A stretch of DNA of 64,000 bases from Apostichopus japonicus (taxonomy: Eukaryota > Echinodermata > Holothuroidea > Aspidochirotida > Stichopodidae): contig NC_092573.1 in NCBI RefSeq assembly GCF_037975245.1, forward strand, positions 22,659,265 through 22,723,264. The letters run 5' to 3'. The notes beneath the pieces were generated by a model. It worked only from the letters and a program-made list of their open reading frames with translations, ran no database searches and was not told the origin of the DNA. A program made the translations under genes and the position numbers. Below, one piece after another: positions 18,171 through 48,425 of this stretch (its first letter is position 1; each line of letters begins with the position of its first letter).

Positions 18171-18250
18171 TTTCATGGAGGTCCCTTCCATTTCAATTTG
18201 CGCCCCTTTTCATGGTGGAGGCACCTTCCATTTCAATTTGCGCCCCTCTT
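18171..18250 (-). repeat. 40-bp tandem duplication across the PAN2 stop codon
   Basis: The block encoding the final [11 protein letters not shown] of PAN2 is repeated 40 bp further on in the 3' UTR, so the segment around CCTTCCATTTCAATTTGCGC occurs at 18184 and 18224. The TGA at 18212-18210 separates the two copies. Confidence 0.85.
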
Positions 18251-21200
18251 CATACAAGGCCTTGAGTTTTTCCTGCCAGGCCTGTTCATCTAGTCCTCCG
18301 TTGCTGTGATTTAAGTAATAATGATATAGTTTGACCGCAGTGCAGGCATCCTCTGTACTGTCGTGGGTCTCAGACTGGATTCTCAAGCCTTCTGAGAAAA
18401 CAGAATGACAGAAATAAGAGAAAGTTTAAACTGTACAAAAGAAAACAACACTTTCATGTTATTTTGTCTGTTAATCTTTATCATAATAGGCAAGAAATTA
18501 AAGGTGTCATTAGTATTATCTCAAAAAAAATAAATTAAAAATATCCCTAAATTGCTGAAAGTTTCAAAAAGCGCTTTCCTATTGTTTGTGACCCTCTAAT
18601 TGAATCCCAGAAATTGACATTTTATTAAATAATATTAATCAATATTTCAGTGAATGAAAATGATATTAGAGTGGCAACAAAAATGCCTCCTGAGTTTATT
18701 TATTTTTAACAGACTGTTCAGCACACAGGTGGCCATTACTGGTGATTTTTTAAACAAATATCACAAACTTGAATATGTCAAAAATAAACACACGACATCA
18801 TCTAAGTGAATAAACAAAATGTTTTGTCCACTTTGTGCAGCATTAACAAGAGTTATTTAGTTGATAACATGTGAGGACAAGCAGAAATGATTAAAGGAAA
18901 GAAAACAAACAAACAATACACAATGCTCTGATTGGAATGACAGATGTTTTCTATTGTTTGTTGTTGTCCAGGTATGAGATATATTAACAAATTATGTTAA
19001 CAAGTTATGAGACTGACAATACAAAACTACTACAGCAGTAACAATCCAACATAATCCTACATCAACAAAGACAGTGGATTTAGAGTCTGTTGTATCAACC
19101 CTCAACTCTGCTATCCTCCCCATCCCAACCTACACCCTACTCCAACATCACTCCTACACCGCCCAACACTACACAAACGTCATTCCCACACAAAACACCA
19201 GTACTATGTCAATATCACTCCAACAACACCCAACACCACTCCCACACCACCCAACACCAGCACTATATCAATATCACTCCCACACCACACCACCCAACAC
19301 CACTCCCACACCACCCAACACCAACACCACTCCAACACCACCCAACACTACACAAACATCACATCATACCAACATACAAACATGCATCACATACATCATA
19401 CCACATCATACCACCCCATACACATGACACCAGTACATTGTTAACATCACTCCCACACCACCCAACACCAATACACTGACAGATAGCCCCTCAGTCTTAT
19501 CCTTTGCTACTTACAGATATCGCTTTGAAAAACTATAAATAAAACGCCTCTTTCTACCTACCAAGAAAATACCAAGCCAGGAACCTTAGAGATACTATCC
19601 TTTGAGTGGGCAAGTTGTATAAATGAGCAGTGTCAATAATTTTATTGTGAGAGACCTGTGGAAGAAAACATCATGTATTAGAGTACGAAGAAAATGTTAA
19701 AATGTCTAAACCCAAGTTCAACCACCCGTTTCACATAGTATCATACAATAATATTGTACCATAATATATAACATGAAACATACACAACAATATTGTAGCA
19801 TATACAGTAGTGTTATATGGTACCAATGATATATTATGATAACAATGAGTTATTATTATATTTCTAAAAGTACACTAGTATTGTAACTAGCATCGTTAAT
19901 CAGCTGGTTCTAACTTACCAACAGATTTATGACTCGGAAGTCTTTCCTGAGTCCATGTCCGACAAACGTTGCTCCACAATCCACCAGATGTCGAAGTTTC
20001 AGGTAGGTCACCTTCAGTGTTGTCAAATGCTTTTGGGAAAGCGTAGCGTCCAGATCTCCGGGATGTATTCCAGAGAAACGAGTGAGATAATCCACCACCT
20101 GTACCAGAATGAATAGAACATCAAATAATGCATTAATGGTATACCAGTAGAAGACCAAGTGAGGTAATCCACCACCTGTACCAGAAGGAATAGAACATTA
20201 AATAATACATGAATGGTATCCTAGTAGCAGACCAAGTGAGGTAATCCATCACCCGTACCAGAATGAATAGAACAGTATCTGAGAATGTGCTCACTGACAG
20301 ATGCTGAGGTATAATATCCTCTGTCAGATGGGAGGTATTTATATGTCTCTTGCTGGGAGCAGGAATGGGTGTGGCAATTACATGCCTGCCTCATAATTAT
20401 CTGCATACTCATGAAAGAGAGAAGGCTTCATGTAAGTCTGTGTTTCCAAATGAGCTTCTGTTGGTTTCCTAACCTTTTGGATTCACCAAACTAGACTAAG
20501 CTATAAATACACTTTTGTAAATTGATATTTTTTACCTGTTCTTGAGTGGATATGTAGTCGTCTATGAATGCTACCATGTTCTTCTCGTCTCCGCCTCTCA
20601 CACAGGTTATCCTCGCCACTGACATTTGACTTGGTTTGATAGTGGAACGAGTTCCATCGCTACGAATTTCAGCTTCCTCCTACAAAGGTTGAGAAAATAT
20701 CATTCACCCAAAAAGCTATCAATAGATTTCAATTTTTCTTCTTAGCTCATATAATTAGGAGTTTTTATTCTACTTCACAAACCACAGTTGCATTATTGAC
20801 ACTAACAAACAGATACCATCATCTAAGCTCCTTGAAACTAAAAACAAACTTGTTGGACATTAAATTGCATCATAATGATTTTGAGAAAACTAATTCTCGC
20901 AGAAAGGCTTAATTGTTCCACTTTTTACCATCTATGCCAAAGCTATTTGGTTATATCATAATGTTGAAATGTATTCACTTCCATGACTTATATAAGTTTA
21001 TAATGCAACATTTTCATGTTATGATGGCATTTGGTCATTTGGAGAAAGATTTCACAAACTTCTTTGTGTAACTTTACATTGAGATACTTAGTGAGTTGGG
21101 ACATAACTCATTTAGACTGTGCTTATTAATTGAATCATTCATGATAAACATAGGCCGACTCACTTAACATTTGCTGATTTAGATTGTCATACACACATCA

Positions 21201-24200
21201 GTATCATTTCATAGTCAGGCACCACAAAGAATGTGGCCAAAGATCTGATTTGAATCAGCCTGGCGTTCATCAATACGTACCTTATTGAGAGACACAAACT
21301 CTGCGTCTAACCCGACTAAGTCACCTTCCTTGATGGCCTCACCTGGACCGAGGGGAGTGAATGTCATGTGAGGTTGGACAAAACTGTGTTCAGCTAAGGA
21401 GGCTCTGGGTTGTAGGATGCTGACTTCATTAGGGTTATGAACTGTCGAGACAGAGTCAAAATACTTTGAAATGCCGATCATTGCTAGCAAAAATTACATT
21501 AAAGAATGAACTTGGGGACAAAATAAATTCTTGTGTGTTGTAGACCATTACAAACATTGCTATCAACCCACAAGGTATTTCTATGAACCTTCTATAATGA
21601 CCCTTTAAACAGCTGAGATTCATCAATAGACTATATACTGTAGCCTAACACACTTGATTCATCAATGGACTATATACTGTAGCCTAATACACTTGATTCA
21701 TCAATGGACTATATAGCCTAACACACAGAATACTAGGTCAGTCCTTCAGAAACATAACTGGCAATCAGTTTTTTCCTGTTTTTCTCGGACTATAACATAT
21801 CAAGACTAATATTTTGCCTGCAGTCACCCTTTAATTTGTTATTAAATGCTTTGCCTTAATTTTTCATATTTAAGACTTGATAAAGTAGATACTATTTAGA
21901 TCATACTTTCTAATTTATTCTGTTATTTAGTAATAAATGCATGGAAGCATCCCTCAACTCCTGGATTTGGTTCATTTCATGTTATGTCAATGGACTGGTT
22001 GAATATATTGTTGGACAAAATACCACTGAACTGAACTGAGATTTGTACTTGGCCCTAACTCCTCTTTAATGGGTTATTCCAGAGACAGGCAACGTAAAAC
22101 TTTTCTTGAAGTGAAGAAACCCTATTCCACACTGTATTCAAGTTGAAAGCCCCATTTTAATATCTTAAACTCGCAATATGGTTGATGGAAAGTAACCTGT
22201 TGAAGTTAAGATACTGGAGTACAATATGGAGTGGTCTTAGTATAGAAGGGACATGTCCCAACTGACTGTAATATTAACACAATCAACTGAATATGAACTT
22301 CCAAGAAAAGTGTTCTATGAATATTCATAGATGCAGACATGCATATCTTTGAAGTTCTTTTGGCATAACTATTATTTGATCGAGTAGCTTCTTACTTTCC
22401 AGGTCGTATTTCTCATTTATTCTGCTGTTTACAAAGTATAGAATGCACGGGACTTTCCAATCCATGTTGAAGTCGATCGCCTCCAACTTGTCGATTGACT
22501 CGATGGAGAAGTCATTGAATAAATACCACTGAGAATGTGTGACACCCTGATGAAATAGAAAACACATAATGATTGTATCAGCATCCTTATAGAAATGGTT
22601 TGACTATTTAAACCAGGAGTTCACTCAGTTCTTTAATATCTTGTTGATGTCACAATCTCTTGAATTTTTTATAAAGAGATTGCTGAAACCAACCCTGACA
22701 AAACAGGTCTCAAACTTTGCTCATATTTAAATGACACTGTAGAATATCAATCTAATTTTATACCAATCGTTCTTTTCAAAAACGTCCATGTTTGTTAGTA
22801 AATACTAATGTAAGAACTAACATTAAACTACATAGAATAAATTTGATCTGGGTTGCTTTCCTCTAAGTTTTTATAATGAAAAAGACCCCAGAAAGCCAAT
22901 TGGCATGAAAATATTCAACAGTAACACTGCATACAAGATTTTTAACCCAATACTGACTTTAAGTTAGCATGCAGACCCACCCACCTGTGAAGTGCAAACT
23001 TCATCCAATATTTACAATATTTATTACGTTTGCTTCCAGTGCTAAAAACCAAGATCATATTTCCTTCTTTTTTTTTTCACAATTTTATTTATTCCGGTAT
23101 AAATATAAATTTATAAATAGGATGAAAAGTACATAAACTGATGTGCTATGAAGATTTATTAATTTACCTCCTTTCTCTTGTGATAAGTGTTGCCAACATT
23201 GATATGTGCGAGCAGGTTTCCACCGGTCTTTGGATCCACGACATGAACCAAGCTGGCATGGAGAGAATACGGCAGGTAGCCTTCCTCTGCAGATTTCTAC
23301 CGTGAGATAGGCAAAACAAAATAGGAATATATAATAACATTGAAATTGGATATATTTCAAGACAAAGACTGCCAGTTTGACATATAGTGAAATGGTCACA
23401 GAGACAGTTTGAGATCTGGAAATGAACAGGTTGGAATATTTAAAGATTTTTAGAGCCAATATCTGATTTCAAAATTTTTAATGAAGACAGGTTGAGCAGA
23501 TACTTTCTATAAGCTAAATGGAATCTTACATGAGTAGTTAGAGGGGAAATCATTACCAAGAAAACAATTGCTAGTTGAGAAAAATGTTGTTCTATTTTAA
23601 GGATATTTATATTAGGCTGAAGACTTGAGTTAATCTACAAGTGACATCATAGGGTCAATTTTGCTTGAAGTTTCTTTGTTAATTTTTATTGATAAAGGTG
23701 ATATTTTGCAAATGCTGTTTACTTCTGCTGTTAACATTACACAATACTATTAACATTATGCAATATTATTAACATTACATAATACTATTAACATTACACA
23801 ATACGATTAACATTACACAATATGATTAACATTACACAATATTATTAACATTACACAATACTATTAACACAATACACAAAACTGCCATTTTTTCTATAGC
23901 ATGCTGCTTGCTTTTAACACAAAAGTATGAACAAAGGATAACAAAGAGATATCACCTGCTAGTGACACTATGACATCACATACTGACAACATGGTGAACC
24001 CCTGAACTTTCAATTTATGATATGTCAAAACCGCTTAGAATTTATGTTTACCTGTTTTTGGGGAATTGTTCGTTACAAGGAACTTTTGCACAAAATAAAT
24101 ATATGATGGTTGGTTTCATTTGGATATCAACTCTTTTGACAAAATAGATAGTAATTATGCACTGTGTGAGTGCAATGGGCAAACACTGCACAATTCAGTC

Positions 24201-27200
24201 ATCTACAAACATAAATTGGATGTATCATGCTCAGCAGTTTGTGACTACAAATCTTTAGTATATTCTGTCCAGTCTGAAATGATACAGAAAAATCATCAGG
24301 AATAATTTTTTGTTCCTTACGTCATCAGGGAATTCCTTAACATCCACCATACCATCCTCCTTCAACCTCATGTAAATCTTCAACGGAACCCACTTCACAG
24401 AATCTGACATGCTCGGTGGCCGCCTCCTTCAATCAAATCAAATAATAAAACAAGAGAATTCATGGCAGAACTTTGCTGGAAGCTGCAGTCATGGTGTTGT
24501 TTTCTATCTATACTGACACGGCAGTTATCTGCATATTTGGTAAAATTTATAAAATAATATATAATACAATATAACATATACAATATAATAAAACATGTGC
24601 ATGTGTTGTGAACTGTTTCGATACTTCTAAAATTTAATTTGTGAGTAAAGATTTTTTCTTTGCATTTGCACGAAATTTTTTGTTGATTAATTTTACGAGT
24701 TTTTCATCACTGTAATACAGAAAAAGTTCTTGACTCGATATTATCTTAGCAAGATTAACCAAAACTGACAGAATGGTAACCTGCTTTAAGTCACTAAGAA
24801 AGAAATTACTTCAGGTATGTAAAAAGAATCCCAGAATCCAATTTTTGTCGTTCCATTGTGTGGGATTCTATTAACTGTCCAAAAAAAGTAAAAATGAAAA
24901 TCATTTAATATTTACACACTTAGTTACTCATTCCTATCATTTATCATTCACAATCTCCTCTCACAACTATTACACATTTCCATTCCTTATCCATTCAAAG
25001 GCCTACCATAACATTGCCCTATCACCCTACCAACCAAATGAAGTATTTTATCATAACTCTGAAAAAGACTTAGCAAAAGACCCCTTTCTGGTAATTTGCT
25101 GTCAAGAAGTCCAATCCTTACTTTATTACAGGTTTTCCTCCATGGCCAAACTTGCAGTCGGATCTTGTGCAATCATCGCCAAATTTACAAGGTTTAACCC
25201 AAGTTTCCTCTACTATTGTCTCTTCAATTGTTTCCGAGTCATTCTGGATAAGAAAGGGGCAAAAATATGAAATTCCTCGTATATTTTAATCAACATAGTT
25301 TACACTTCATGAGCAAATGCTGGAATGTTACAAGAACAAGAAGAAACAACTGCTTACACTTTTATAAGATGATATCTGACGTCTTCGCGTAGCATGCTTA
25401 CGTATAAATCCATCTCAGATTATATCATCGAGGGGAACTATCCACTTGAACACCGTATGAAGTTGTGTGGAATGCCATATAGAACACCATTAACGACCTA
25501 AGGTGACTTCTCAATTATTTCACAACCAAAACTGATTCAGTCAGACTGCCATCTGTTGTGGTACCACCAATAGTGGTCTGTGAAAGCTAAACTGCTTTGG
25601 ATATTTAACAAATTCCAGGGTTTTCCCCCCAAATTTAATATCAAATTCCAAAGAGACTTACTTCCAGCTGTTTCCGCCAAAACATTTCATCTCCTTGAGT
25701 TTCAATGTGACAATTGATAGCTATAACATCTTGTAACCTCTGATAACTTCTCGTTTGGACCTAGTAGTTTTTAAAAATGAAAAGAAACATAAACAGGATA
25801 GCTGTAGAAAATGGTGCCAGAAGATTAACCATAGGGGGAGGAAACAAACATTTGCCTTTTACCTTTGAAAGATCTTACAATTGTTGAAACGCAGCCCATT
25901 GACTATGAGATATTAAAGGAATAGCAGCTCTTCATGTTTCTGCACATTTGATGACTTGAGCAAGTCTAAAACTTGTACCATTCAGCCTAATTCATTACTT
26001 TCCTGTTTCCTTGATGGAGACATATTTTGTAAAATGTTTTGTTCCAAAAAAAAACTATTGAAGGTTGTATTATTACTTAATGCCAATGTTAGTAAACTTA
26101 TAGAGGGAAATATTTGGTAGTGATCAAATACGAGTAATTGTAACAAACTTGGTTTGATGGGATGTATTGCTGTACAATAAAACTAAAATGCAAGTTATGA
26201 GTTATAGAGATACTCACCGATGGCTGGTACTTCTTACAGTCCTCACAGAAGGTATAAGTTGACTGGTCTGAACACATACTCTTCTGAAGAACAGTTACAA
26301 AGTCAACTTTGTTAATTGCTTTGCCAGGAGCTGAAATCGATATAAATAAAGTGTTTGGTATAAACAAGAACATCATCCAACTAAATAAATTCAAGTCAAG
26401 GTACTTCTTCAAACAAGTTACATACCTGTAGTCACCTCCATGTTGGTAATATCTACTAATTAATCTATAGGTGATTATTAATCAGTCTAATGTTTTACAA
26501 GGGTTCATTTCCAAGAAACTTGTCTTGGCAAAGTCTTACATATAGGTCAATAATTATGAAAGATGGATGTTTTTTCTTCAGAAAAACAAAACGAACAGAA
26601 CATACATTTCTTTCTCTCCTGTAGTCTCGTCTAAAATTTGTAACACGATCAAGATCACAAACTAAGGACTCTGATATATTGTTTTTATTTCTTTAGTATT
26701 TGGTTCCTCTCTAGGCCATTAATGTATATATATTTGGCCAGAATGTTTCCATAGTTCCCTAGCAACCAACCAACATGTTTTAAAAAATGTTGCTATCAGA
26801 TTGTCTTAACTGAATAAAGAGGAGACAGTTTCTATCATGTTATTGACCCTAGGAGTAACATATGATTATAAAACCAGGACCATTTTAATCTGTCAACACC
26901 TTGAAATTGTGTTCAAGAATTCATGAATTACAATAGTTGCCCTAATTAAACCACCTCATTAGCTTGTTCCCAGGTGAATGTCATCTCTGATCAACAACCA
27001 TACAACCTTTCATTGATTGGATTTAATTACTCCATCTTATGCAATACAAAATACAAACTCAAAACAAAAACTCTGATTGGTCTAGTAAACCATGATATCA
27101 AATTATACAACCTACAATCAACATGTTCAGTAAAAATCTTTACTTTCCAACCAATCATCTCCATTTACAACAGTGGCTCGTGTTATTACAACATATCCGT

Positions 27201-30200
27201 CCTTTTCAAATCGATAAATAAAACTTTCTATCATCAATAATACTGTATATTGTATTCAACTTTCTATGAGCAATAATATATTCTGTCTACTTCACAAGAA
27301 TTATTTGCATAATAAGATATAATTTGTCTTACCAACAGAGGGATAGTTCAGTGTCACCACACTCGATGCTGAAACCCTCTCTGATTCCTGGGAGCAGGAT
27401 CTGCACCTGCTCTTGGTATGGACTTGAGCCTCAAACATATCACCAACGGCCGATGGTTCCTGCCTATCTTTGCCCTCTTCATCCTTTGTAACGATGTTTG
27501 TCTCCTTGAGGAGCAAACATAGAAAAAGCATCATTATAGATTACGTCAATTTTATCAAGTTTCTCTTCTGTTTGTGATGATGAAATAAATTGTAAAACCT
27601 TGATTTTTAACTTGTGCACAATACGACAGCATCAAAAACATTCTCATACTCAGCTTCTCATAAAATCAACACAAACATGTCTGTCCATCTTTCCCACATT
27701 TCATTTCCCATTATGAATAATTCTTAGTAGCCAACATCATAAATATATCCAGCCATATTTGCATGGTTCAATATTTGAATACGTAGCTAATTTTCACATG
27801 ATCTCTCAATGGTAGCATTTCTGTTGAACAATCTCATTCCAGTGTATCCCTCTTGACTTTGATGAACTTATAAACATTTTGCTGCAGTTGTTGTCACAGC
27901 TTTGGATAAAGCTTATGGTGATCATTTGTCCCAACAGTTTCCCTTTTGTCTCAATCTGTGCAGATTGGATTTGTGATATGAAGTAGAAGTCAATTTGAAA
28001 CATTGCATTTTGAGTTTTGCCAATACAATTCCTGGCTAGGGTAGATTACACTAACAAACTGAAAAGTATCCCACTCAGGATGGTTGCAAAATATATTATT
28101 ATACAGCAGTGAGACATAAACTGCAATCACAAAGTTATTTTGATGTGTTCCATCTCCTTTGTAGTTTTTTGCAAATCTTTCAAATATGTCACATTCTGAG
28201 ATTTATGATATGATGAGTCTAGGCAGCACTGTTTGGCCTTCTTATCTTTTTCTTTCCTCTTTAGTGAGAGCACAAACTTGGCAACTTTTCAGTTCTGAAA
28301 AAAAAGTACCGTTGGATTTAAATAATTAGCGATGAGTCGATAGAATAGCAAATAAATTATCTGACGAAAGATAAACCTAATACCTGAACAATCTGTTGAA
28401 GGACAAATCTGTTCCAACTCTGTATAAGCCGCGGGAAGTTGGCTTTCCCTGTCGACTCTTCTGCATCCCCCAAGAGAAGACCGAGGGCGGAACCCTCTGG
28501 AATAGTTCGAAATGCTCGTAAGAAGTTACTTGCCTGAAACAAGCGAGACAGATCAAGATATAATTCACATGCTGAAACAGTGGTAAGTTTGCCAAAGAAA
28601 ATGATGTCTGTTACCATGTACTTCTGATGCATTGAATCTGTAAACTGACTGCACCATGAACTTTTGAGGCATTGAATCTGTAAACTGGCTGTTACCATGT
28701 ACTTCTGAGGCATTGAATCTGTAAACTGGCTGTTACCATGTACCTATGAGGCATCGAATCTAGAGCACTATGTATGATTGGTTTTCACCAATGATTGTAA
28801 AGGTCTCATTCACAAGTAATCAAGGGTCAGTCAAGTAATTTTACTTTCGTAAATCTAAGTCTTTCTCCTTGAATATCAATACTATTTCTTTAACATTTTG
28901 AACAGTATTTGTGGAGCATCCAAATCAGAACCACTGAGGGAGTCCCCATATTGGAAAATGGTTATTACATTACATATGACTGCATATTAAATTATAATTT
29001 ATAAATTGTTGCCTAGTAACATTGCTGAACTTACCAAGTGTAACAAAAAACAAAAAAATAGAAGGAAAAGTTTTGATTGCTCAAACTAAGACTCTCTGCA
29101 AGACTTTTCAACTTACAAAACAAATAAATTATACAATTTGTGGTCCTATTTGATGCCAACAATTTTGTTACCCAGGCATATTTGCGTATGAAACTAGTAT
29201 AAATCGCATGCCTGCCCCCCCCCTCACTCACAAAAAAAACAAACTTGACTTTGTCTTTACTTTTTAATTCAAAATTTTGATGACTCTATTTAAGAACTGT
29301 ATTGATTTAGTATTTAAGATTTGAAGAACATACCAAAATTGACCAAACCACAATTGCTGATTTAAATACCAGACTCAAACCTTTTGTTTTGCTACATTTT
29401 GATAGCATTCACATAGGTAGCAGTATAATAATTAATACTTTATATTATTATTCATACCTTGGTACATCACTAACCTGGCAGGTTTGACCTTTACAATGAT
29501 CCAGCATATAAAACAAAAAGCCCATTTCACAGGCCAGACAAAACTCCTTCTCACAAAGGTGACTTTGGAGGGCCACTCTGAGAGGCTCGATGAAATGTAG
29601 AACCTGTTACGTTACAAAGACGAAAAGAAAAAAAAACTGAAGGTAAACAGCTGGATGGATAGTATAAACATTTGTCTGTCTTTCATGAGTACATAAACCA
29701 ACCGTATTTGGAAAGTAACTATCAAAATAAAGTCTTCTTGATATAGTCAGACACAAATGTTTTGTAACAGTACAAAATATGGAGCGATGCATATATAACT
29801 TAACAGTGAAAGACTATACTCAATGATGGCACAAGATGGTTAAATTCCATTTGGATTCATTCACATTTATTTTGGATACTAATTTTTGTGTCAATTGTTC
29901 ATATCTTTAACTTTGCAACAGTACCATAGCATTGCCTGTTAGGCTATACCTAAAAATAGAGATGTGCTAGTGGTGGAAAGTGTGTACACCTTCCCTCCAG
30001 TACCTTAGTCCTCATTAGAACCATTGTTGTATTTAATGACATACTTTTATAACAATGCTACAAACTAACTTTGTGATTTGTTGATGATGCTGGGCCAAAC
30101 TCAAACAATTTGGGTCTGCCTGACTAGAGGCTGACGAAACTTGAAATTGGCTAAACCTTTGTCAGTTATAGTCATAAATCCACACGTGAGGAATAACAAA

Positions 30201-33200
30201 TATTTGATATGTTACAGGGCTTGAGTGGAGTCTTGTGTGTGGCCAGCTAATACTAGACCTCACCTGCAGCATGCTGTTACAGTAAGCATTTGGAATGTGC
30301 GGCTCTAGTCCGGCAAAGTTTGTAGAGTTGTAATGACGAAAGTTGAAGTCATCTACGCCAAACTTCCCGCTGTACTTGATCTCCACTTTGCGGTACTTCT
30401 TAGGTACGATACACTGCACGAGATCTTCGCCTACGGAGGGTGAAAGGTCATCGGAGGGAAGTTACAACATTTCGGTTTAGTAAAGTTGTGCATCCGTATA
30501 AAAAATTTACATGTGTTTGGGTAATTCTAGTCTCTGAATCCCACCAACTTTCCTGAACCATGGGAGTCATAGTGAAAACATTTTATGAATGATTATAATA
30601 ATTTTACTAGAATACCCATAGGCTCACCAGATAATGGGGTCCTGAAAGATATGTCCATAATCTAAACCAATAGATGTTGCTGATGCTAAACTAATATACA
30701 TCCAGCTAAGTCAATATACATGCTGTTGCTGTCAGGAGTCACACGCACAACCACAGAAAACACATTTTGCATAGGATAATCATGCAGTTACTTTTACGAC
30801 GCTTAAGCGTGGGAGAAGCCTGCAAGGGCTTTTGGTTTACAACTTACACATCGAGTGGCTTCCAATTCAACATTTGAACTCAAATTTGGAATCTTTTCAA
30901 TTTAGAAAGTCATTTCAGATGGGAAAACCGTAGATTGCTCTTGCATGAAAAACCCACCTTACTGTGACCCGGCCGGGTACCGAACCTCCCGATTGCTAAG
31001 CTTCATTGCTTCAAACGCCTTTATCCACTCGGCCACAGTACCGGGTACATTTACACCTTACAGAATTCTGATCAGATAGCATGTATGACAGACAGGCTAA
31101 TCCTGGTAGAACTATCTACAAACTGTAAGGGTCGTTCCTTAAATGGATGCTTGATAACACACTCTAAGCATCTCTACTAATTTAAGTTAAAGGCAACGTG
31201 AGAAGTAAGATATGTTGGTTAACTTCAAGTTTTACAAATACCCCATTTTAATACTTTCCATGGATTTTCTTGCACTGAAATTCATGTTAATCCATGCATT
31301 AAAGAAGAATGCTAAAAAGGAATGAATCAAAATAAGCTCCCACGATCCTCTGTTTAAACTCTTTCAGCACATTGACATATTATATAATGCATAGTGGTAA
31401 TGGTAAAGTAGGATTAATATTCGCCATAACTTTTTTTCTAATAGGGTTGTGAATGAGTGGGACGGTTTTCCTGAGAAAGTTATACTTGCAAGTAGTGTGA
31501 ATGGGCTTAAGAATGCTTTGGACAAGCACTTTAAGCTTTGTAATTGGGTCTGAATGTTTGGGTCTTAAGTTTTTTTTCTCTCCTATAGGGTCCTTGATGG
31601 GGACTTGAGTGTCCCTCCTGATCCTTTTTTTTCTACTAAACTAAACTACACTAAATGGTATTGAAGAAAACACTAGCAGACTACAGACCTCTTCCGATGG
31701 GTGATTCTGGAATAAGCTCTTTAGTTCCACCACCCAAGGTTGCGAGCACCTCTGGGTAGGCCACTTGGTTCCTCTTCTGACTCCCAGACTTGGGTGCGTA
31801 GCCTATAAAATCCACCACTTTCATAGTGCTCAGAATCTGAGGATCCACGGGTATGGTTTGCCTGCGTTATATGAAAAGAGAGAAAACATCAATAAGACTG
31901 AGAAATTCAAGGAAACAAAACACCAAACTATTGTAATTAGCTATTGTCATTTAAGACGCTTCAGATAAAATGATATATAGTATTTCTGATTCAAAAAATG
32001 GTAACATTTTTCAACGAGAACGCACAAATGGCAAGAAAATCCATCTTCCAGTCATTTGTCACAAACATAGCTCTATCATTTTATTAAAAAGATGAAAGAT
32101 GTTGGTCGTGTTTGCTTGGCATTTAAGAACGTCAAAGATGGGGATGGAATATAAGCCCTACTATTTATGAACAATATCTAGACAATTAATACACAATCCT
32201 TGGTTTACATATCACATGATGATATGAGACAGTAGTCAAGATGAACTAGATTCCGCTGATAATTATGAAACGCACCTGTGCACCGGTCTGCATGTCTCTG
32301 CTGGCCAATCAGACAGCAATGGCTCATCGTTGGCGGGAAATGGCAGAGGAATGGAAAACAGCGATGCGAGGGAGTTGTTGATGTCAATAGAGGGTATAGG
32401 GTCAACCTAAAAGACAACAAAAAAACAAATTATTTACAATCGTGGTCGTAGCTCTTGTTTGACCCAAAACACCTTCTGAGATCTGTAACATTCATAGTGG
32501 TCGTTGTAATTGCTCACGAATAAGAACGAAAAAGTACTTAAAGTTTCCATGACAACCTTTCTGGAGATTTAATCTGCCCTGCATATTATTCCCAGTTTAT
32601 GTTGAGGAGGGGATGAAATGAGACAAGTGTGTCAGGGATTGAGATACTGGGACAAAAGGCTGTAAAATAATAATCAATTTGATCCTTCTACCATATTTGA
32701 TGACAGAACAGATAACTTTTAAAGTTAAATCTCAAATAAGGAAGTTAGAATGATTGAATAGAGAAGAGTTGTGATGCATCTCAGATAAAAATTGTCATTA
32801 TTTCCACATTAACTACTGTGGGCTCAGTTTTACATTAATATCACCATCAAATGAAATACTGTTTGACTTCCATGGAAATGTTTTACATATTGTTGATCGT
32901 GCATTCTGTTGGTAAATGGAAGAAGGGTTAGCTTACTGCTAGCCTGGTGAGAATCATTTGAACTATCGTTTAGTATTAAGGACTGTTTTTACATCAAACT
33001 AGTAACCGTCATGGGTTTGCGTCGTGGAAATAAGAATCCTTGCTACAACTGTATAACCTTGTGAATGCCTGCTGGGGTTTAAACCAAGTGAGGTAATTTA
33101 AAACTCTTCATAAATGGATTACTCACAGAGCTGGCAAAGTTTGTATCTCTTGACATTTGGTTAAATGTTACCTCTTCTGCATCAGCCCAAAGGTGCACAT

Positions 33201-36200
33201 AACCTGAAAACAACAGAAAACAAGTTGAGTTAATAAGCTTTTGTGTTGGCAAATCACATGATAGTTGGCTTTGTATTTGAGTCAGAACTATGTGACATAG
33301 TCCACAATATTAGGTCTAAGGAAGAAAAGGGGACTAGCTTCCAGAATTGGATGAAGAGTTTCACTGTGTTAATTGAACCACATTTTTTTGGTCCAAATAT
33401 ACCAGTAAATTCTTCTTAGTACCCGTCCCTGCTGTCCCTCCTCACCCCCTCTCTTCTGTTCTGATACTGACCACCAACATCTCCAAGCACAGCTGCATAC
33501 ATAGTTAAATAATACAGATTCAGAAATAATAGCCCACTCCTCCCTCAATCTTTACAATCCTCCTTCCCTTTTGTTCTTCATTGATAGTAGCTTCTCCAAA
33601 CACTACTGCATATTCAGTTAAGGGTTTATCTTGTGTCACATCTCACAATCCTGCACTCTCTTCCCCTTCTTCTAATCAATTCTGTTATGCCTTGCTCTGC
33701 TATTAACTACTAATATTGTCAAACACGGCAGCTAACAACACTGTATGCATAATCAAGGGCACATACGTACACAGATCAGTTCCTATTCCTACTTTCTTAC
33801 CACTACCACTACCCCTCCTCTACTTCCCCTCTCTGATACTTACCCCTCCCCTACTTTCCCTCTCTGATACTAACCCCTCCCCTAATTTCCATCTCTGATA
33901 CCTACCCCTCCCATATTTCCCCTTTCTGATTCTCCCCCCATCTTCCCCTCTCTGATACTTACCCCTCCCCTACTTCCCCTCTCTGATACTTTCCCCTCCC
34001 CTTCTTCCCCATCTCTGATACTTACCCCTCCCCCTTCTTCCCCTCTCTGATACTAACCACCAACATCTTGTAACACCATACTATTTTAGTTATAGCATAC
34101 ATAATCCTCTTCCACCCATCACCACTGCCTTTCACCCTCCCCTACTACCCCTTTCCTTCCCTTTTGGCAATGACCTGCCTCCAAATACTAACCAGCAACG
34201 TCTCCAAACACCATGCTATGATATGTGCTGCACACATCCATACACATCAACATATCTCCAGCAATGTTGACCTGATAGAGTACTATATCCTCCGCTGTCA
34301 TCAACCCTCCGGGGTCCACCAACTGAAAATGACCCGTCTACAACAAAATATGGGGAAGAAAATCAGGACATTTCACAATCAGAAATACTAATTCAAGAGA
34401 AAAGTGATGAAGCCATCTGGATATGTGTACAACACAACGTCTCCCTCCATAAAAACAAATTAACACAAAACAGTTATTGTTTCTTTACCTACATTAATAT
34501 CAGTTGATATGTTGAAGAGACTCTATTTCCTTTTGAAACAAATGTCAATGTTTATTAGAGGCCTACAAAACTTTCAGTTCAGTAGAGGATTTTAGGTTTA
34601 CTTTGTATTTACTACCATGATCACATGAACACGGTTAGGGTTAGGGGATAGGGTTAGGGTGAGGGGATAGGGATCTATACTCATCAAGCTATTTTAGTTG
34701 AGACATAATTTAGCTAGTTCAAAGCAACAATGCAGAACCTTGGTGTTCATGAAGATAATGAAGATATGAGCTAACTAACTCCTCTGTAAATTTATATGGG
34801 CAATGGCCCAGATTACTAGCTACACATAAATGTTTGCTCTCAACTTCACTACCAAAAAAATACATATATATATATATATATATAAACATATACTACATTA
34901 ATTGAGTGGTAAATCAATCACAAAAGCTGAAAAAGTTGCTTAGTACCTGACTCATAGCGATGACTCTGTTAGAATAAGTTGGTACATAACGAACAAACAG
35001 AGCTTCAATGGGAATGTGAAATGGTGGCATGGCTCGCATCATCCGAAGATCAAAGACCATCAAGTATCTGTCCAAGCTATAGTTTCCATGCCTGTTCAAG
35101 GATTAACATGATAATGTAATGTTAAGATGGCACTTGACCAGCATGGATATGTTTTTATCCTTCAAAACCTTACGATATACTTCCTTAGTGTTCACAACAA
35201 GAACTTCACGAGGTCGGGGGGTGGGGGTGGCCGTTCCACTTAGTTGCGCTGTTTGAGCTAGTAGTGCATATTTTGTATAGACTGCATATAACTGTTGTAT
35301 ATTACCAATGTTCTTTGTATTTTGTATCATTCATTGTATTGCTCACCGCAGATATGTAATTTCCTTCTGGGATTCAATAAAGTTGACTTACTTACTTTCA
35401 TGAACTATAAATAGAAATCAGTTTACACAAACTGTGTACATGGCAGATTATTGTAATGTAGAGGAGCTAAATGTGCAGCAGTTCTCAACTTGTATTGAAA
35501 AAAGGGGTAAATTTTTTCATATGAAATACACGAGGCAAATGCTATTCATCAAACTGGAAGGATTTCAAAAAGTGGCAGATGAGAATCCAGCATGAAACAT
35601 AATAATAACTGAAAAAAAAAAAAAACTTTTGTAGTGTCAAAGTTCAAAGCAATAGAACAAAATTCCATTCAACATCTAATATATGACAATACCACTAAAT
35701 AAGTAATTATTTCCAGCACATAGCTTGGATGCCTGGACTTGCATGTTTATTGTTTTACTGGCATCCATTCAAATATTTTTTTATTTTAAGATACGGTCAA
35801 CAAATCAGGAAACGGCGGTGATTATACCTGCCCAACAGAGCAAATTTATGCATTTATTCTTTCATAATGTTTCTTGGCCCCCTCCCACCCCTCCAACCCC
35901 TCCAACCCCCTTTTCTTTCCAAGAATGTCTATTTAAGCTAACAAGTGAATGGCAAATTATGAAGAAAGGACTCAAATTTAAGTTAAATGTATCCCTTGAC
36001 TAAGGATCAGCAAGTACCTTGTTGAAAATCCACAGGAGACCAGTTGGTTCTCATGAACATCAAAATCCGAAACTGATGTAGAGTGAGCCTCCAGAGTGTG
36101 TTGAATTTCCATGGAGGATGGATCACAGAGATGAATCTGAGAATGAAGGAAGGATGTAATACATAATTAACAAACATCATGTCATCAATTAATCCATGGA

Positions 36201-38563
36201 GGAGGGATCACACAGATGAATTTGAGAATTTAAGGAAGGATTTAGTAAATTAACAAACATCATGTCATCAATTAATCCATGGAGGAGGGATCACAGAGAT
36301 GAATTTGAGAATTTAAGGAAGGATTTAGTAAATTAACAAACATCATGTCATCAATTAATCCATGGAGGAGGGATCACAGAGATGAATTTGAGAATTTAAG
36401 GAAGGATTTAGTAAATTAACAAACATCATGTCATCAATTAATCCATGGAGGAGGGATCACAGAGATGAATCTGAGAATGAAGGAAGGATGTAATACATAA
36501 TTAACAAACATCATGTCATCAATTAATCCATGGAGGAGGGATCACACAGATGAATCAGAGAAATTAAGGAATGATTTACTACATAAACAAACATCATTTC
36601 AGCAATTTACAGCAGATACTCCAGTAAACAGTACAACAAGCACATGGTCAACAGCTAACCTGAAGTGTTGTGTTTTAATAACTGTTGGCTGGTCAAGCAT
36701 GTTAAATATGCCTCATGAATAAGGTACTAAATTAAAACTGGCCAACCTGCAAAGGTCTTAGGGTTAAATATTAAACAGGAAACAACAACTACGACTATGT
36801 ATAGCATAGAACTAAACAGGCGCATAAATTGCTAACATCAGATGTCACTGGCATATTTTGCAACTAAGAGGAAACGACGCCATCAGGACCTCTGCTCGGC
36901 GGTGTGAGCAGCCCTTTCTGACCTAGCAAACCCTTGTTCTCATGCCAGTTCATCGGTAGGCTATTCTGCTACTGTTCAAAGGGTTTACTTCAAAAGTTAT
37001 ATGGTGTCTTTGAACAAAATTACCCCAAAGAAAACCACCAATGAGAATCGGAACGATTGAAAGTTACTTTATAAAGTAAACATAAGAAATTCATTGTGTT
37101 ATGTTTATTTACGACTTGCTAACTAGAAGCAAGATGCCGTCAATTAGGCTCATTGTTTGTGATTTCATCGCTGTTTGGTATTAATCTATTGAGAACCAAC
37201 AAACACCTTAAACTGATTCCTCACCTTTCCGGTCGTATCGGCCCGACAGAGATAGCTATTGCTCATTCGCATGATGGTGATGCCTTCCTCTCCGCAATCG
37301 TAGAGACCCTTCTCCTCCCCCGTCTTGAGATCAATCTCCACCAGTTTCTCTTGCTGTCCTCCCGCTAACAACCTTGTCGAATCTTTTAAGATGATCATGG
37401 CTCTCATCTCTTCCATCGCTGATCCGCTGAAAGAAGGATATGTGTAAAAGTAAGTTGGCCTGACGTTTCGATCCTAGCAGGATCTTCTTCAGAGGCTAAA
37501 TGACAAGTAAAAGTAACAGAAGGGACAAAAACACGCACAGAATACAGACAGGTTAATGAGCACGGTGAACACAATGAGATAGATGAAAGGGGATTAGCGG
37601 GATGAGTAAATGACAAAAATGAATAAAACGCTGAAACACAAGAATACAATACAAGTACAAATACAGAGTAGATAAGGAGGATTACCCGAAGGGATACAGT
37701 AACGGAGCAATTACACAGGCTCTCTAGTGGATAAGCAGTTTGCTAACAGTTTTATTTTATTTTGAAAGAAGGATATAGAAGGAAAAAAAACATTAGAGCA
37801 AAAGAGACACAGCCCAATACCCACACCAACAAAAAAAACTCAAAAGAAGTTGTGCTGATTAGAAATCTGAAATTTAGTTTGAGATGAAACTCAAAGGTTT
37901 GGTAAAAGTACCTTGGGAATACAAAATGAGTTTCTTTAACGTTGATATTTACTTTCCATCAAATGCAATTGCTCTTGTTCATTTCAAAACAGTTTGCATG
38001 CTGAACATGAACAATACCTTTGTAGCCAGTTTGTCAAATTTGGAGGGGCATAGTGTTTGTTTAGAAGGGCAGAATTTTAGTTTGAGGGGGTTGTTTACAT
38101 GGATCCACCATTGGAGTCCATTACTGAAACCATAGATGTGAAAAAAACAAATTGGGGGAGGAGCATGATCCAAATATGGGGGGGGGGGTGGAGGGCATTG
38201 CCCAGGAAAATAATTGACGCTATGGACGCTGATTGTATGTCCAGAGGTTCGAAACTGGTAAGGAAGGTCGTTTGTCACCTGTATCGAACAATACTAGTTC
38301 TGTTTTGGTGACATATTTGCCTTACTCTAGAGATCAAACATGATGCTAACCAACTTGAAATAACTTATGATTCCTAAAGCCAGATCTCGAAAAAGATACT
38401 GTACTTTGAACAGACTGTTAAATGAAATGGAGGTAAACAACAAAGACAAAATATATATATATAATTGAAATTGTAGTGAGTTAGAAAATCCAGAACAGTG
38501 AAAAAACTTCCAGCCTCCACCAAGATTCGAACCTGGGCCTCCCACTTATATGCGCACACCCTA

Positions 38564-38655
<92 letters not shown>

Positions 38656-41312
38656 ATTTGATTCTAGCCCCTCATGACACATACTTGTAATCAAATAGTT
38701 TTATTCCCTGTCTGGAGTTACAGCGCAGTCCTTGTCTCGCCAGGGAGATGATTCCAGAATCCAAGGCTAGGAGTTGTCTGATCTCCTGCTGAGATGAATG
38801 AGCTTGGAAGGATGAATACTTCTGAAGGTGAGATCCATAGTAGGAAGTCACATGACCCTGAATAAAACAAAGAATGAACAGCATGATCGACTGTCTTCTT
38901 TCCTGCCTTCTGTTGATCTTTGCTGACATTTTACTTTTCTTATCTTTTTTTTTTTATTGGTAGTTCTTAAATATCATCAAGTTTGGTGCAACTAAAACAC
39001 GCTCTATCCAAATGAAGACTTCTATGGATTAAGACGTTTTAAGACGATTAAACTGTCAAAAATATATTCTTAACTTTGACCTAGAATGTTTAAAGAGGTT
39101 TGCATGTTATACTGTTGTTATTCTCTTGATTTGCAGTAACTTCTGAACTGATTCTTTTGTTCATTTTGGTAGGGAGGTACAGCGAAATCACTGCAAGAAA
39201 TTGCAACACAATCAGAAATGTCTTTCTTTAGGGAAAGCCAGTGGTCTGATGAATGGTATGCATCATTCCAAGTCTTGCAATCAGAGAAACTTCAGCAACT
39301 GAGAGGACTGTAAACTTTATAAAGTTTTTCCAATAACTACTGTCAGTGCTATGAGGCTACAATTAACTGCTCTTAAACTGCATCACTACCCACCCCTTTT
39401 CCATCTCGTTCTCAAACCACATGTCCCGTCACAGCACTGAGACATAATTACAACTTCTTCATCTTTCAGCTGAAGTGTTTAATATAATGTTAACAAACTG
39501 CAGAATTCTAAAAGCAGGTATGATTTCTATTGTATCTCCATGCCTGTATGTGTATCTTACTTATTATGCCCAGGCGCATAGCCAAGGGGGGGGCGAAGGG
39601 GGCAGCCGCCCCCCCTTGAGCATATTTTTTACAAAAATTTTTAAGGTTTTTATGATATCGCTAGTATTTTCAAAAGAGAAAATGCTAAGATACAACTAAC
39701 AAGGCATGGGAAGTGCCATTTCCGGCGATCTGGGAGGCATTTACAGCCAAAATTTTCTTGTACGCTCCGCGCCAACCATGGTGGCGCTACGCTTAGATAG
39801 TTTGCAATGCCAAATCTACAGTTTCGCCCCTCCCTTGGCAAATTCCTGGCTACGCGCCTGATTATGCCATATTAGTTCCTCAGTAATAATGATCTTAAAC
39901 CCTGCCTTTTCAACCTTAAATATGTACTAAATTTCATTTATGTCTAATTGAACAATTGACAACAATAGGGAAAACATTGAAGGAACAATTTCTAAAGAAC
40001 TTATTGGCTAAAAAAGAACTCAAGCCAGTGACATCACATTTACAGTTCTATTATCTAGCAAATGAGAATTCCAGCCCAGAGTTGGTAGAAGTCCACATTA
40101 ACTATTTCTTTGTGGGTGATGCCAGCACCATATTCACTTGATACAACTTGAAAAGTGGCAGGGAATGGGATTTGAAGAAACATTTAAACTTTATATAAGC
40201 TAAAATGGTCACATGATATTTGAACATTACTTCACACTTGGGAGTATTTCTCTAGCAGTTATGTAAACTAATTTAATATAAACAACCAAGGATCATACCC
40301 CTTGATTTCCCATCCACAAAAGCTCTTCAAATGGGTCAAAGTAGAGAGCACTGACACTAAATGTGGTCCCACCATCTGCAAAGACTGTTTGTAATTCCTG
40401 GTAAGAACCAGCCACTGGAATAGTCAAGTGACCTATCAGAAAAATAAAATAAAAATGAAAACTTTACGGTTGTTGATAGTACGTCTGTCACTTCTATTCT
40501 CCCAAGTTTCGATCTCGAATACACAGAATTACAACAATAGGGCTAACAATGAATGTATTCCATATAGACATTTCTGATAAACCTTGTGCAAGAGACATTA
40601 ATGTTCCTTATTCTACATTTATAATACTTTCCCAGTGCCCTGAGCAATGTTTATGTTCCCTCTAATCTATGGGTTTGTGCACACTCATTTTGAAATCTGC
40701 AAACCACGGAAAATAACAGATCCAGGACTGGATGGGATGTTTACACACCCTTCCCTTTTGAACCACTCTCCCCTAACATATTTTACAAATTAAAGTAATT
40801 AGAAGTCCAACCTTGCATGTAACTTAGATGTATGAAACTAATTTATAGCCTAACTTTGCCTTAGAATGCACTATTTCACATCTCTTTTATTATTGGGAGG
40901 ACCCTATAATCCTCTACACTGGAATCAGCTTCATCGATCTCAGGGCCATATCTCGTCCAAGACTTACAAATTACATTTGGCAAAATATATAAATAAATAT
41001 CTTTGGAAAAAGGTCATTTATTCAATTTGCACTATACTAAGATAGTGTTTTGCATCTGAAACTTTCTGACTGTTTAGATGGGATGCATGCACATGGACTT
41101 TGATCATTTAATTTTCAATGTTGTTACACTGATCATCCGCATTACTACTCAGTACACTTCTACGTACCATGAGCATTAGTGTAGGGTTCTATAGCTTCTG
41201 GGGGTACATCATGTGGGAAGTGCTCTAATGTTAGCCCCTCTGCCTGTGCTGGTAGCTGACCATACTCTGGGTGATACTGGCCTGGTCCTGCAAAGGCAGG
41301 GTGGAACTCCAT
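18210..41312 (-). CDS. PAN2: PAN2, catalytic subunit of the PAN2-PAN3 poly(A) nuclease (complete, 25 coding exons, 1193 aa)
   Basis: Exons in coding order: 41312-41168, 40432-40299, 38857-38685, 37426-37225, 36136-36018, 35091-34947, 34337-34193, 33203-33127, 32406-32276, 31861-31689, 30430-30264, 29603-29475, 28533-28384, 27504-27333, 26330-26218, 25760-25662, 25243-25122, 24426-24321, 23296-23168, 22546-22396, 21483-21281, 20679-20536, 20098-19919, 19655-19562, 18388-18210. The 3582 nt stay in frame throughout. PAN2 starts cytoplasmic mRNA decay by trimming poly(A). The N-terminal beta-propeller spans about 60-330 ([12 protein letters not shown]), then a PAN3-binding linker. A UCH/USP-like domain starts near 520. 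Its NAYCNSMLQ (529-537) has Ala530 where active USPs have Cys, as known for inactive PAN2. The DEDDh exonuclease has Asp987, Glu989 (LDAEF), Asp1096 (GLRKDF), His1143 and Asp1148 (HDSTEDA). Length matches human (about 1200 aa). Oddities: a CCCH finger at 777-792 and a retroelement at the exon 4 acceptor. The exon 25 acceptor could lie 3 nt upstream, adding one residue. Confidence 0.96.
19110..19480. repeat. CAACACCACTCC-type minisatellite in PAN2 intron 24
   Basis: CCACACCACCCAACACCA and related units recur with irregular spacing of about 12-25 bp. Open frames rich in Thr, Pro and His on the plus strand are composition artefacts. Confidence 0.8.
20060..20270 (-). repeat. Tandem array copying the start of PAN2 exon 23 and its 3' splice site
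   Basis: The real junction is at 20098/20099 (intron ...GGTACAG, exon GTGGTGGATTA). Near-identical copies lie at 20175/20176, where CAG is intact, and at 20253/20254, where it is mutated to CGG. Spacing is 77 and 78 bp. Each copy carries about 20 exon bases and about 55 intron bases. Confidence 0.88.
21615..21728. repeat. About three copies of a 39-bp tandem repeat
   Basis: TTCATCAATGGACTATATAC followed by TGTAGCCTAACACACTTGA recurs in PAN2 intron 20. Confidence 0.8.
23715..23880. repeat. 18-19-bp tandem repeat (ATTAACATTACACAATACT-type)
   Basis: About eight degenerate units lie in PAN2 intron 18. Confidence 0.85.
28606..28755. repeat. 41-bp tandem repeat, about 3.5 copies
   Basis: CTGTTACCATGTACTTCTGA followed by GGCATTGAATCTGTAAACTGG recurs in PAN2 intron 12, about 75 bp beyond the exon 13 acceptor. 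Confidence 0.85.
30776..31040 (-). mobile_element. tRNA-derived SINE with intact-looking tRNA head (31040-30960)
   Basis: On the minus strand the element begins with a tRNA-like region. It has an A box (TGGCCGAGTGG), a B box (GGTTCGGTACC) and a 7-bp acceptor-stem match between TACTGTG at its start and CACAGTA at its end. The Ser/Leu-type A box is followed by a poor anticodon arm, so it is a SINE head and not a working tRNA gene. A body of about 180 bp follows and ends CGTCGTAAAAGTAACTGCAT, matching the copy at 415-620. It lies in PAN2 intron 10, in the same orientation as the gene. Confidence 0.75.
31370..31650 (+). mobile_element. 3' end of a CR1/Jockey-like non-LTR retrotransposon
   Basis: The frame ending with TGA at 31551-31553 encodes [20 protein letters not shown], then [14 protein letters not shown]. 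This fits the common RT tail pattern NRVVxxWNxLPxxVVxAxSVNxFKxxLDxxW. A short 3' UTR follows, ending in TACTAAACTAAACTACACTA. The element is antisense to PAN2, in intron 9, just below the exon 10 boundary at 31689. Confidence 0.78.
33775..34065. repeat. 30-bp pyrimidine-rich tandem repeat
   Basis: Units of the type CCCCTCTCTGATACTTACCC recur about nine times in PAN2 intron 7, close to the exon 7 donor at 34193. Confidence 0.82.
34632..34673. repeat. Short interstitial telomere-like tract (TTAGGG variants)
   Basis: GGTTAGGGTTAGGGGATAGG followed by further GTTAGGG and GGGGATAGGG units. TTAGGG is the telomere repeat of most animals except most arthropods and nematodes. Confidence 0.7.
35105..35398 (+). 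mobile_element. Possible non-LTR retrotransposon 3' UTR
   Basis: The segment ends TTCTGGGATTCAATAAAGTT followed by (ACTT)n, a layout typical of CR1/L2-type 3' ends. No RT-like frame is legible upstream. It begins only about 15 bp beyond the PAN2 exon 6 acceptor at 35091. Confidence 0.4.
36040..36565 (-). repeat. 83-85-bp tandem array copying the start of PAN2 exon 5 and its 3' splice site
   Basis: The real junction is at 36136/36137. Copies of the same junction lie at 36221, 36304, 36387, 36470 and 36555. Each contains about 30 bases of exon and about 50 of intron. The acceptor AG is changed to AA in the copies at 36221, 36304 and 36387 and lost at 36555. It is intact at 36470, where the upstream pyrimidine tract is also preserved. 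Confidence 0.92.
37442..37763 (-). mobile_element. Penelope-like element fragment with 13-bp target duplication, in the PAN2 exon 4 acceptor
   Basis: The 322-bp insert is flanked by direct repeats GAAAGAAGGATAT (37429-37441 and 37764-37776). On the minus strand it starts with an AAAATAAAATAAAA-type stretch and ends near a CTGAAGA...GAAACGTC motif and ACTTACTTTTACAC, a layout I associate with Penelope-like terminal repeats. No coding frame remains. The exon 4 splice site lies at 37426, so only 15 intron bases separate it from the insert. Confidence 0.65.
37458..37496 (-). ncRNA. Hammerhead-ribozyme-like motif
   Basis: Read on the minus strand: stem I GCCU/AGGC closes the motif, then comes core CUGAAGA (fits CUGANGA). 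A stem II of GAUCC/GGAUC with a short loop follows, then GAAA and CGUC with a minimal stem III. One extra A lies between the CUGAAGA core and stem II, and stem III is almost absent. Self-cleavage is therefore uncertain and may need a dimer, as proposed for minimal hammerheads in Penelope-like elements. Confidence 0.5.
38475..38560 (-). mobile_element. Possible tRNA-like SINE fragment next to a (TA)n tract
   Basis: On the minus strand CCCAGGTTCGAATCTTGG contains a good B-box-like core (GGTTCGAATC) with a weak flanking stem. The A box is not clear. It abuts the (TA)n tract at 38568-38653. Confidence 0.4.
38568..38653. repeat. (TA)n dinucleotide microsatellite
   Basis: Uninterrupted TA repeats of about 85 bp, 32 bp from the PAN2 exon 3 donor at 38685. 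Confidence 0.97.
39571..39860. mobile_element. Non-autonomous hAT element (MITE), 290 bp, with 8-bp target duplication
   Basis: The ends are inverted: CAGGCGCATAGCCA at the left and, on the reverse complement, CAGGCGCGTAGCCAGG at the right. Both sides carry a perfect ATTATGCC duplication (39563-39570 and 39861-39868). There is no transposase frame. It lies in PAN2 intron 2 and is unrelated in sequence to the hAT copy at 7245. Confidence 0.92.
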
Positions 41313-47399: not shown

Positions 47400-48425
47400 T
47401 TATGTTACTGATGCACGAAATTCTTGATGAGAGATGGGTGGTGGTTGATACGGAGATGTGATTTGTGACTGAAGTTTCTTCATGTTACAGATACACATAG
47501 TTCTTGATAATTGATGTGGTGGTTGATAGGGAGATGTGATTTGTGACTGAAGTACCTTTATGTTCTTGATAAGAGATTGGTGGTGAGGAAATGGAGATAT
47601 AAATTGTGACTGAAGTTTCTTTATGTAACAGATACACATAGTTCTTGATAAGAGATGGGTGGTTGATTGGGAGATGTTATTTGTCATTTGAAGTACCTTT
47701 ATGTTCTTGATAAAAGATGGGTGGTGAGGAAATGGAGATTAAATTTGTGACTGAAGTTTCTTTATGTTGCTGATGCACATAGTTCTTGATAAGAGATAGG
47801 TGGTGGTTGATAGGGAGATGTGATTTGTGACTGAAGTACCTTTATGTTCTTGATGAGAGATAGGTGGTGGTTGATAGGGAGATATAATTTGTGACTGAAG
47901 TTTCTTTATGTTACTGATGCACATAATTCTTGATAAGAGATAGGTGGTGGTTGATAGGGAGATGTGATTTGTGACTGAAGTACCTTTATGTTCTTGATGA
48001 GAGATAGGTGGTGGTTGATAGGGAGATATAATTTGTGACTGAAGTTTCTTTATGTTACTGATGCACATAATTCTTGATAAGAGATAGGTGGTGGTTGATA
48101 GGGAGATGTGATTTGTGACTGAAGTACCTTTATGTTCTTGATGAGAGATAGGTGGTGGTTGATAGGGAGATATAATTTGTGACTGAAGTTTATATTTATG
48201 TTGCTGATGCACATAGTTCTTGATAAGAGATAGGTGGTGGTTGATAGGGAGATGTGATTTGTGACTGAAGTACCTTTATATTCTTGATAAGAAATGGGTG
48301 GTGGTTGATAGGGAGATGTGATTTGTGACTGAAGTTTATATTTATGTTGCTGATGCACGAAGTTCTTGATAAGAGATAGGTGATGGTGGATAGGGAGATA
48401 TGATTTGTGACTGAAGTTTATTCTG
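47400..48425. repeat. Higher-order tandem repeat, 144 bp made of 80 + 64 bp subunits
   Basis: TTCTTGAT markers end at 47790, 47854, 47934, 47998 and 48078, giving alternating 64 and 80 bp steps. Subunits share GAGATAGGTGGTGGTTGATA and TTTGTGACTGAAGT. Because 144 is a multiple of three, open frames up to 171 codons appear on the minus strand; they are repeat artefacts. Confidence 0.92.

Follow-up and report, generated by a model that had tools for sequence, protein, structure and literature searches.

The window analysed here, a stretch of 64,000 nucleotides from Apostichopus japonicus, sits on contig 13 of the 671.6-Mb genome (35 contigs). Its minus strand carries a gene of 25 coding exons which, when spliced by hand, encodes a protein of 1179 residues (Table 1). 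The exon ends were hand-picked from open frames and splice sites with human PAN2 as a guide; all 24 introns run from GT to AG, and the exons join into a single open frame. The predicted protein has the PAN2_N (PF20770, 268.8 bits), UCH_1 (PF13423, 311.9 bits) and RNase_T (PF00929, 59.2 bits) domains in the expected order, all scoring above the Pfam cut-offs. Its closest solved relative is human PAN2 (PDB 9qtu chain C, 1166.8 bits), with a match that extends over residues 55-1179 and leaves the start codon and the first 54 residues uncovered. Judged by sequence, the gene is PAN2, the orthologue of the human gene.

Several other features are found in the window. Beside PAN2, on the opposite strand, there are open frames for an OTU-type cysteine protease (PF02338, 44.0 bits) and an A20 zinc finger (PF01754, 30.3 bits), which probably belong to one OTUD7/Cezanne-like gene. 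A short open frame lies inside PAN2 intron 10 and appears similar, by its motif, to the end of a reverse transcriptase from a non-LTR retrotransposon. Three segments contain long repetitive open frames with the look of tandem repeats, and a further open frame, ending in EEDEYHEILNNLDSLCQKYETGASSMDDSDDD, may be the terminal exon of some other gene.

Table 1. Coordinates of the predicted PAN2 gene, its exons, the zinc finger and the other features of the window.
Feature	Position	Strand	Remarks
PAN2 gene	41312..18210	-	predicted
PAN2 exons 1-5	41312-41168, 40432-40299, 38857-38685, 37426-37225, 36136-36018	-	predicted
PAN2 exons 6-10	35091-34947, 34337-34193, 33203-33127, 32406-32276, 31861-31689	-	predicted
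PAN2 exons 11-15	30430-30264, 29603-29475, 28533-28384, 27504-27333, 26330-26218	-	predicted
PAN2 exons 16-20	25760-25662, 25243-25122, 24426-24321, 23296-23168, 22546-22396	-	predicted
PAN2 exons 21-25	21441-21281, 20679-20536, 20098-19919, 19655-19562, 18388-18210	-	predicted
PAN2 exon 16	25662..25760	-	UCH-domain stretch before the insert; ends in phase 0; aligns to human PAN2
PAN2 exon 17	25122..25243	-	122 nt; residues 759-798 and two bases of codon 799; holds the CCCH finger
CCCH finger C777-K-F-G-D-D-C783-T-R-S-D-C788-K-F-G-H792	25142..25189	-	C-X5-C-X4-C-X3-H
PAN2 exon 18	24321..24426	-	UCH-domain stretch after the insert; entered in phase 2; aligns to human VWLPFSIRM
Open frame in PAN2 intron 10	31407-31553	+	
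OTU and A20 frames	11699-13352	+	
Repetitive open frames	5450-6400, 11080-11520, 47400-48600		several frames
Open frame ending in EEDEYHEILNNLDSLCQKYETGASSMDDSDDD	52317-52865	-	

Splicing of exon 17

Exon 17, which is bounded by the acceptor TTTCTTATCCAG and the donor GTAAGGAT, has an entry phase of 0 and an exit phase of 2, and its junction with exon 18 codes for a basic stretch, KRR. If the exit phase of exon 16 and the entry phase of exon 18 are right, an exon of 3n+2 bases is required between them, and splicing exon 16 straight to exon 18 results in a frameshift and an early stop. The gap between the two exons holds 32 frame-keeping candidates, taken as stop-free AG..GT segments 20-399 bases long and scored by splice-site tables built from the other sites of PAN2; exon 17 is the best of them, with 12.2 versus 9.4 for the runner-up. 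Its acceptor and donor score 5.5 and 6.7 bits, compared with 4.1-13.5 and 3.8-11.3 bits, respectively, in the 23 others, which themselves supplied the tables. Such sites are weak for PAN2 and would suit an exon that is missing from the mature mRNA or a gene model that is wrong at this point, but the need for a 3n+2 exon, the first rank among the candidates and the stop that follows from skipping make this very improbable. The same span had been proposed as an in-frame exon in the first-pass annotation, and the splicing described here predicts identical borders.

A shorter exon 17 of 114 nt, which ends in phase 0 at 25130 and is followed by GTAATA, was rejected, as no exon 18 acceptor was seen in frame with it; the end at 25122 (AAA/GTAAGG) joins exon 18 in frame. 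At E <= 0.001 the 55-residue open frame that includes exon 17 matches nothing in the genome but itself.

The finger and its relatives

In the translated exon 17, the four putative zinc ligands C777, C783, C788 and H792 stand exactly where the first-pass annotation had put them. The pattern C-X5-C-X4-C-X3-H arose in 6 of 20,000 shuffles of the PAN2 protein and is therefore beyond chance. The 1179 residues contain no second CCCH pattern, let alone a tandem array of the kind found in the Nab2/ZC3H14 family. Fingers of the PF14608 (zf-CCCH_2) type have the ligand spacing C-X5-C-X4..6-C-X3-H, which the PAN2 finger fits, and the X5-X4 variant is also present in yeast Nab2. The PF14608 profile gives 25.3 bits (E 2.1e-5) on a 38-residue peptide, 0.5 bit below the curated cut-off of 25.8 bits, 24.0 bits on the 55-residue open frame, and 19.8 bits within full PAN2, 6 bits below the cut-off; accordingly, the finger is described here as Nab2-like in make-up and not as a certified member of the family. 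A search of PDB sequences with the exon 17 peptide at E up to 10 returned eight distinct sequences, of which the four best are all Nab2 and none is a PAN2 chain. The top match, yeast Nab2 fingers 5-7, reaches 1.1e-7 when summed over three fingers, the best single finger having an independent E of 0.059. By its spacing and its best PDB matches the finger is a single CCCH finger of the Nab2 type, in line with the Nab2/ZC3H14 class to which it had been assigned from spacing at first sight.

The likeness to Nab2 and ZC3H14 consists of the C-X5-C-X4-C-X3-H spacing, a basic and an aromatic residue after the first cysteine, and an aromatic residue two positions after the third, and the PAN2 finger shares 9 of 16 residues with finger 5 and 10 of 16 with finger 6 of yeast Nab2. 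In a PF14608 scan of the 671.6-Mb genome, which yielded a lower-bound list of 26 matches, it took sixth place with 25.1 bits (E 0.035). A finger could be read by pattern from 18 of the 20 loci examined among these matches (not from L016 and L021), and among the genome fingers so read the X5-X4 spacing occurs only in PAN2 and in a gene on contig 8 (3.815-3.835 Mb, loci L022 and L023) with about five Nab2-type fingers, which we call ZC3H14-like from its fingers alone. One further finger of that gene, CRFGKGCSRLGCKFFH, is 9/16 identical to the PAN2 finger and is absent from the genome-scan list. The fingers differ in number: Nab2 has seven, the ZC3H14-like gene about five, and PAN2 a single one inside an enzyme subunit. 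Exon 17 was also considered as a copy of a ZC3H14-like exon; however, by exon borders judged by eye, the latter appears to begin one residue before the first cysteine and exon 17 begins 18 before it, and with such unlike starts a direct exon copy is unsupported.

Two other deadenylase fingers invite comparison. First, the deadenylase complex of PAN2 includes another lone CCCH finger, that of PAN3, and the first-pass statement that this finger is N-terminal and binds poly(A) agrees with a study in yeast, where it is poly(A)-preferring (PMC4158885). The yeast Pan3 finger nevertheless differs in its spacing, C14-X8-C23-X6-C30-X3-H34, in its location in the partner subunit, where it is N-terminal, and in its presence in two copies per complex. 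Its first two cysteines being separated by five residues rather than eight, the PAN2 finger falls outside both the Pan3-type and the C-X8-C-X5-C-X3-H fingers. Second, the DEDD deadenylase TOE1 is reported to have a CCCH finger in its catalytic subunit and so provides a precedent, although its finger has the spacing C300-X8-C309-X5-C315-X3-H319 and it belongs to another enzyme family (PMC13316410). The same source describes TOE1 finger mutants that keep deadenylase activity and lose some general exonuclease activity (PMC13316410).

Position in the UCH-like domain and range among animals

Within the UCH-like domain of PAN2, CRSC 664, CEDC 716 and VIAINC 737 are followed by the finger at 777-792 and then by the stretches at 809 and 844, so that the finger lies downstream of the second CxxC and upstream of the stretch with the former histidine box. 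For USP domains, a review assigns the CxxC motifs to boxes 3 and 4, the catalytic histidine belonging to box 5 (PMC5372499); on this scheme the insert is placed, by eye, between boxes 4 and 5. Between the flanking anchors human PAN2 has 47 unrelated residues compared with 53 in the A. japonicus protein. In the alignment with 9qtu chain C, the four ligand places are taken by S, F, W and a gap, one cysteine and one histidine being located elsewhere in the human insert. Both the earlier placement of the finger in a variable UCH loop and the earlier statement that human PAN2 lacks a finger there are thereby borne out. In the four fungal chains among the matches listed, the alignments break off before the finger site and restart after it. 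Domains of the USP type frequently accept additional modules at set positions, and in PAN2 an extra module is likewise found after the box 4 CxxC. Insertion points in the USP family are the subject of a study by Ye et al. (2009). To our knowledge, no Nab2-type finger has been described at a USP insertion point.

The comparison of PAN2 across the finger site covers human PAN2 only. Scans of viral contigs and genome contigs and a tblastn search of plasmids found no PAN2, and a literature search over titles and abstract openings showed no mention of a finger in PAN2 among the matches listed. There is about an even chance that the finger is an old feature, common in invertebrate PAN2 and lost or replaced in vertebrates, which would be compatible with a role in poly(A) binding. 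The human insert, of similar size and at the same site, is what would be expected of a diverged older insert, and insect PAN2 may perhaps carry something similar. In that case the finding would be real and merely unremarked. PAN2 shortens the poly(A) tails of mRNA, and the A. japonicus enzyme appears to carry a poly(A)-type finger that is missing in the human protein and by which it might itself grip its substrate.

Putative adenine contacts and a possible role

Residues that contact adenine in Nab2 have counterparts in the PAN2 finger. First, the crystal study of Chaetomium Nab2 is reported to predict a two-adenosine finger from aromatic residues two positions after the first and the third cysteine and a basic residue directly after the first (PMC3874189), and PAN2 has the aromatic F779 and F790 and the basic K778 at these positions. 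Next, in finger 6 of yeast Nab2 an adenine is described as held by Arg445, Asp447 and Phe450 (PMC5388407), the positions of which are occupied by R785, D787 and F790. In total, five Nab2 side-chain adenine-contact positions are filled in PAN2, by K778, F779, R785, D787 and F790. Two named yeast contacts are unmatched, Leu449 being replaced by K789 and Glu456, two residues before the first cysteine, by K775; Arg445, Asp447, Leu449 and Glu456 are each a contact in one yeast Nab2 finger. Finally, the adenine counts of the rule did not hold in the later yeast structure, in which finger 5 is reported to bind one adenine where two were predicted and finger 6 two where one was predicted (PMC5388407). 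Basic and aromatic residues also commonly occupy the rule positions in other CCCH fingers that the genome encodes, and because of this, the two lost contacts and the counts unmet in yeast, the contact residues favour adenine binding by the PAN2 finger but do not prove it. The segment that precedes the finger, residues 759-773, has six acidic residues and no basic ones.

On these grounds of sequence, we tentatively consider the most likely role, at a little under an even chance, to be that of a Nab2-type module in the UCH loop that folds around one zinc, holds one or two adenines and acts by avidity. The single finger would fold around one zinc, and K778 and F790 would flank one adenine of the poly(A) tail; a second adenine would either follow the Chaetomium Nab2 arrangement and sit on F779 or, like that in yeast Nab2 finger 6, be held by R785 and D787. 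One such finger would be weak and would thus work through avidity: alongside PABP and both the fingers and the pseudokinase surface of PAN3, it would help to keep the tail near the exonuclease, and from the UCH loop it could allow PAN2 to grip the tail to some extent in the absence of PAN3. Zinc binding, poly(A) binding and an effect on activity are what we infer for the finger. In yeast, the 3′ end of the RNA is reported to enter a cavity shaped by the RNase and UCH-like domains (PMC6547884), which makes a UCH loop a plausible place of RNA contact. In the yeast complex, isolated Pan2 is described as not binding RNA, which is brought by Pan3, and the single Pan3 finger as preferring poly(A), its apparent Kd being roughly 60-100 uM (PMC4158885). 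Deletion of the Pan3 finger is reported to affect in vitro deadenylation modestly or not significantly (PMC6547884, PMC10590902), and this, together with the active TOE1 finger mutants, argues against a strong effect of the PAN2 finger. The presence of one finger in PAN2 as opposed to the tandem arrays of Nab2 also speaks against a poly(A) contact, as do the Pfam scores below the cut-off, the independent E of the best single Nab2 finger and the acidic segment 759-773.

Alternatively, the finger could be structural or protein-binding, its zinc pinning the long UCH loop or the finger docking PAN3, PABP or another partner, without any contact to RNA. The unrelated insert of human PAN2 implies that the loop tolerates other content, and the USP-type CxxC/CxxC zinc site, which in PAN2 would correspond to CRSC 664 and CEDC 716, is reported to be important for conformational stability (PMC5372499). 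The two lost Nab2 contacts and the failure of the rule for two yeast fingers likewise lower the case for poly(A) binding and raise that for a structural finger. However, five adenine-contact positions are filled, and R785 and D787 would be needless in a purely structural finger, so that we regard this alternative as possible but rather doubtful. That the finger is a degenerate relic with its zinc binding lost, in a loop under little constraint, would agree with its score below the Pfam cut-off but is quite improbable: the PAN2 finger retains its four ligands as well as the aromatic and basic residues that the rule requires, and these are usually the first to go in a relic.

The usual division of labour between PAN2 and PAN3, a picture based mostly on yeast, assigns RNA recognition to PAN3 and leaves PAN2 with catalysis. 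The proposed adenine contact bears on this picture: were PAN2 to have a poly(A)-type finger, animals would differ in how the two subunits share these tasks. A stronger form of the proposal, in which the catalytic subunit gained its own adenine-specific finger in this lineage and holds poly(A) or A-rich 3′UTRs by itself, seems unlikely, and if true it would change which tails PAN2 trims and how short. The unrelated insert at the same site in human PAN2 offers a natural comparison.
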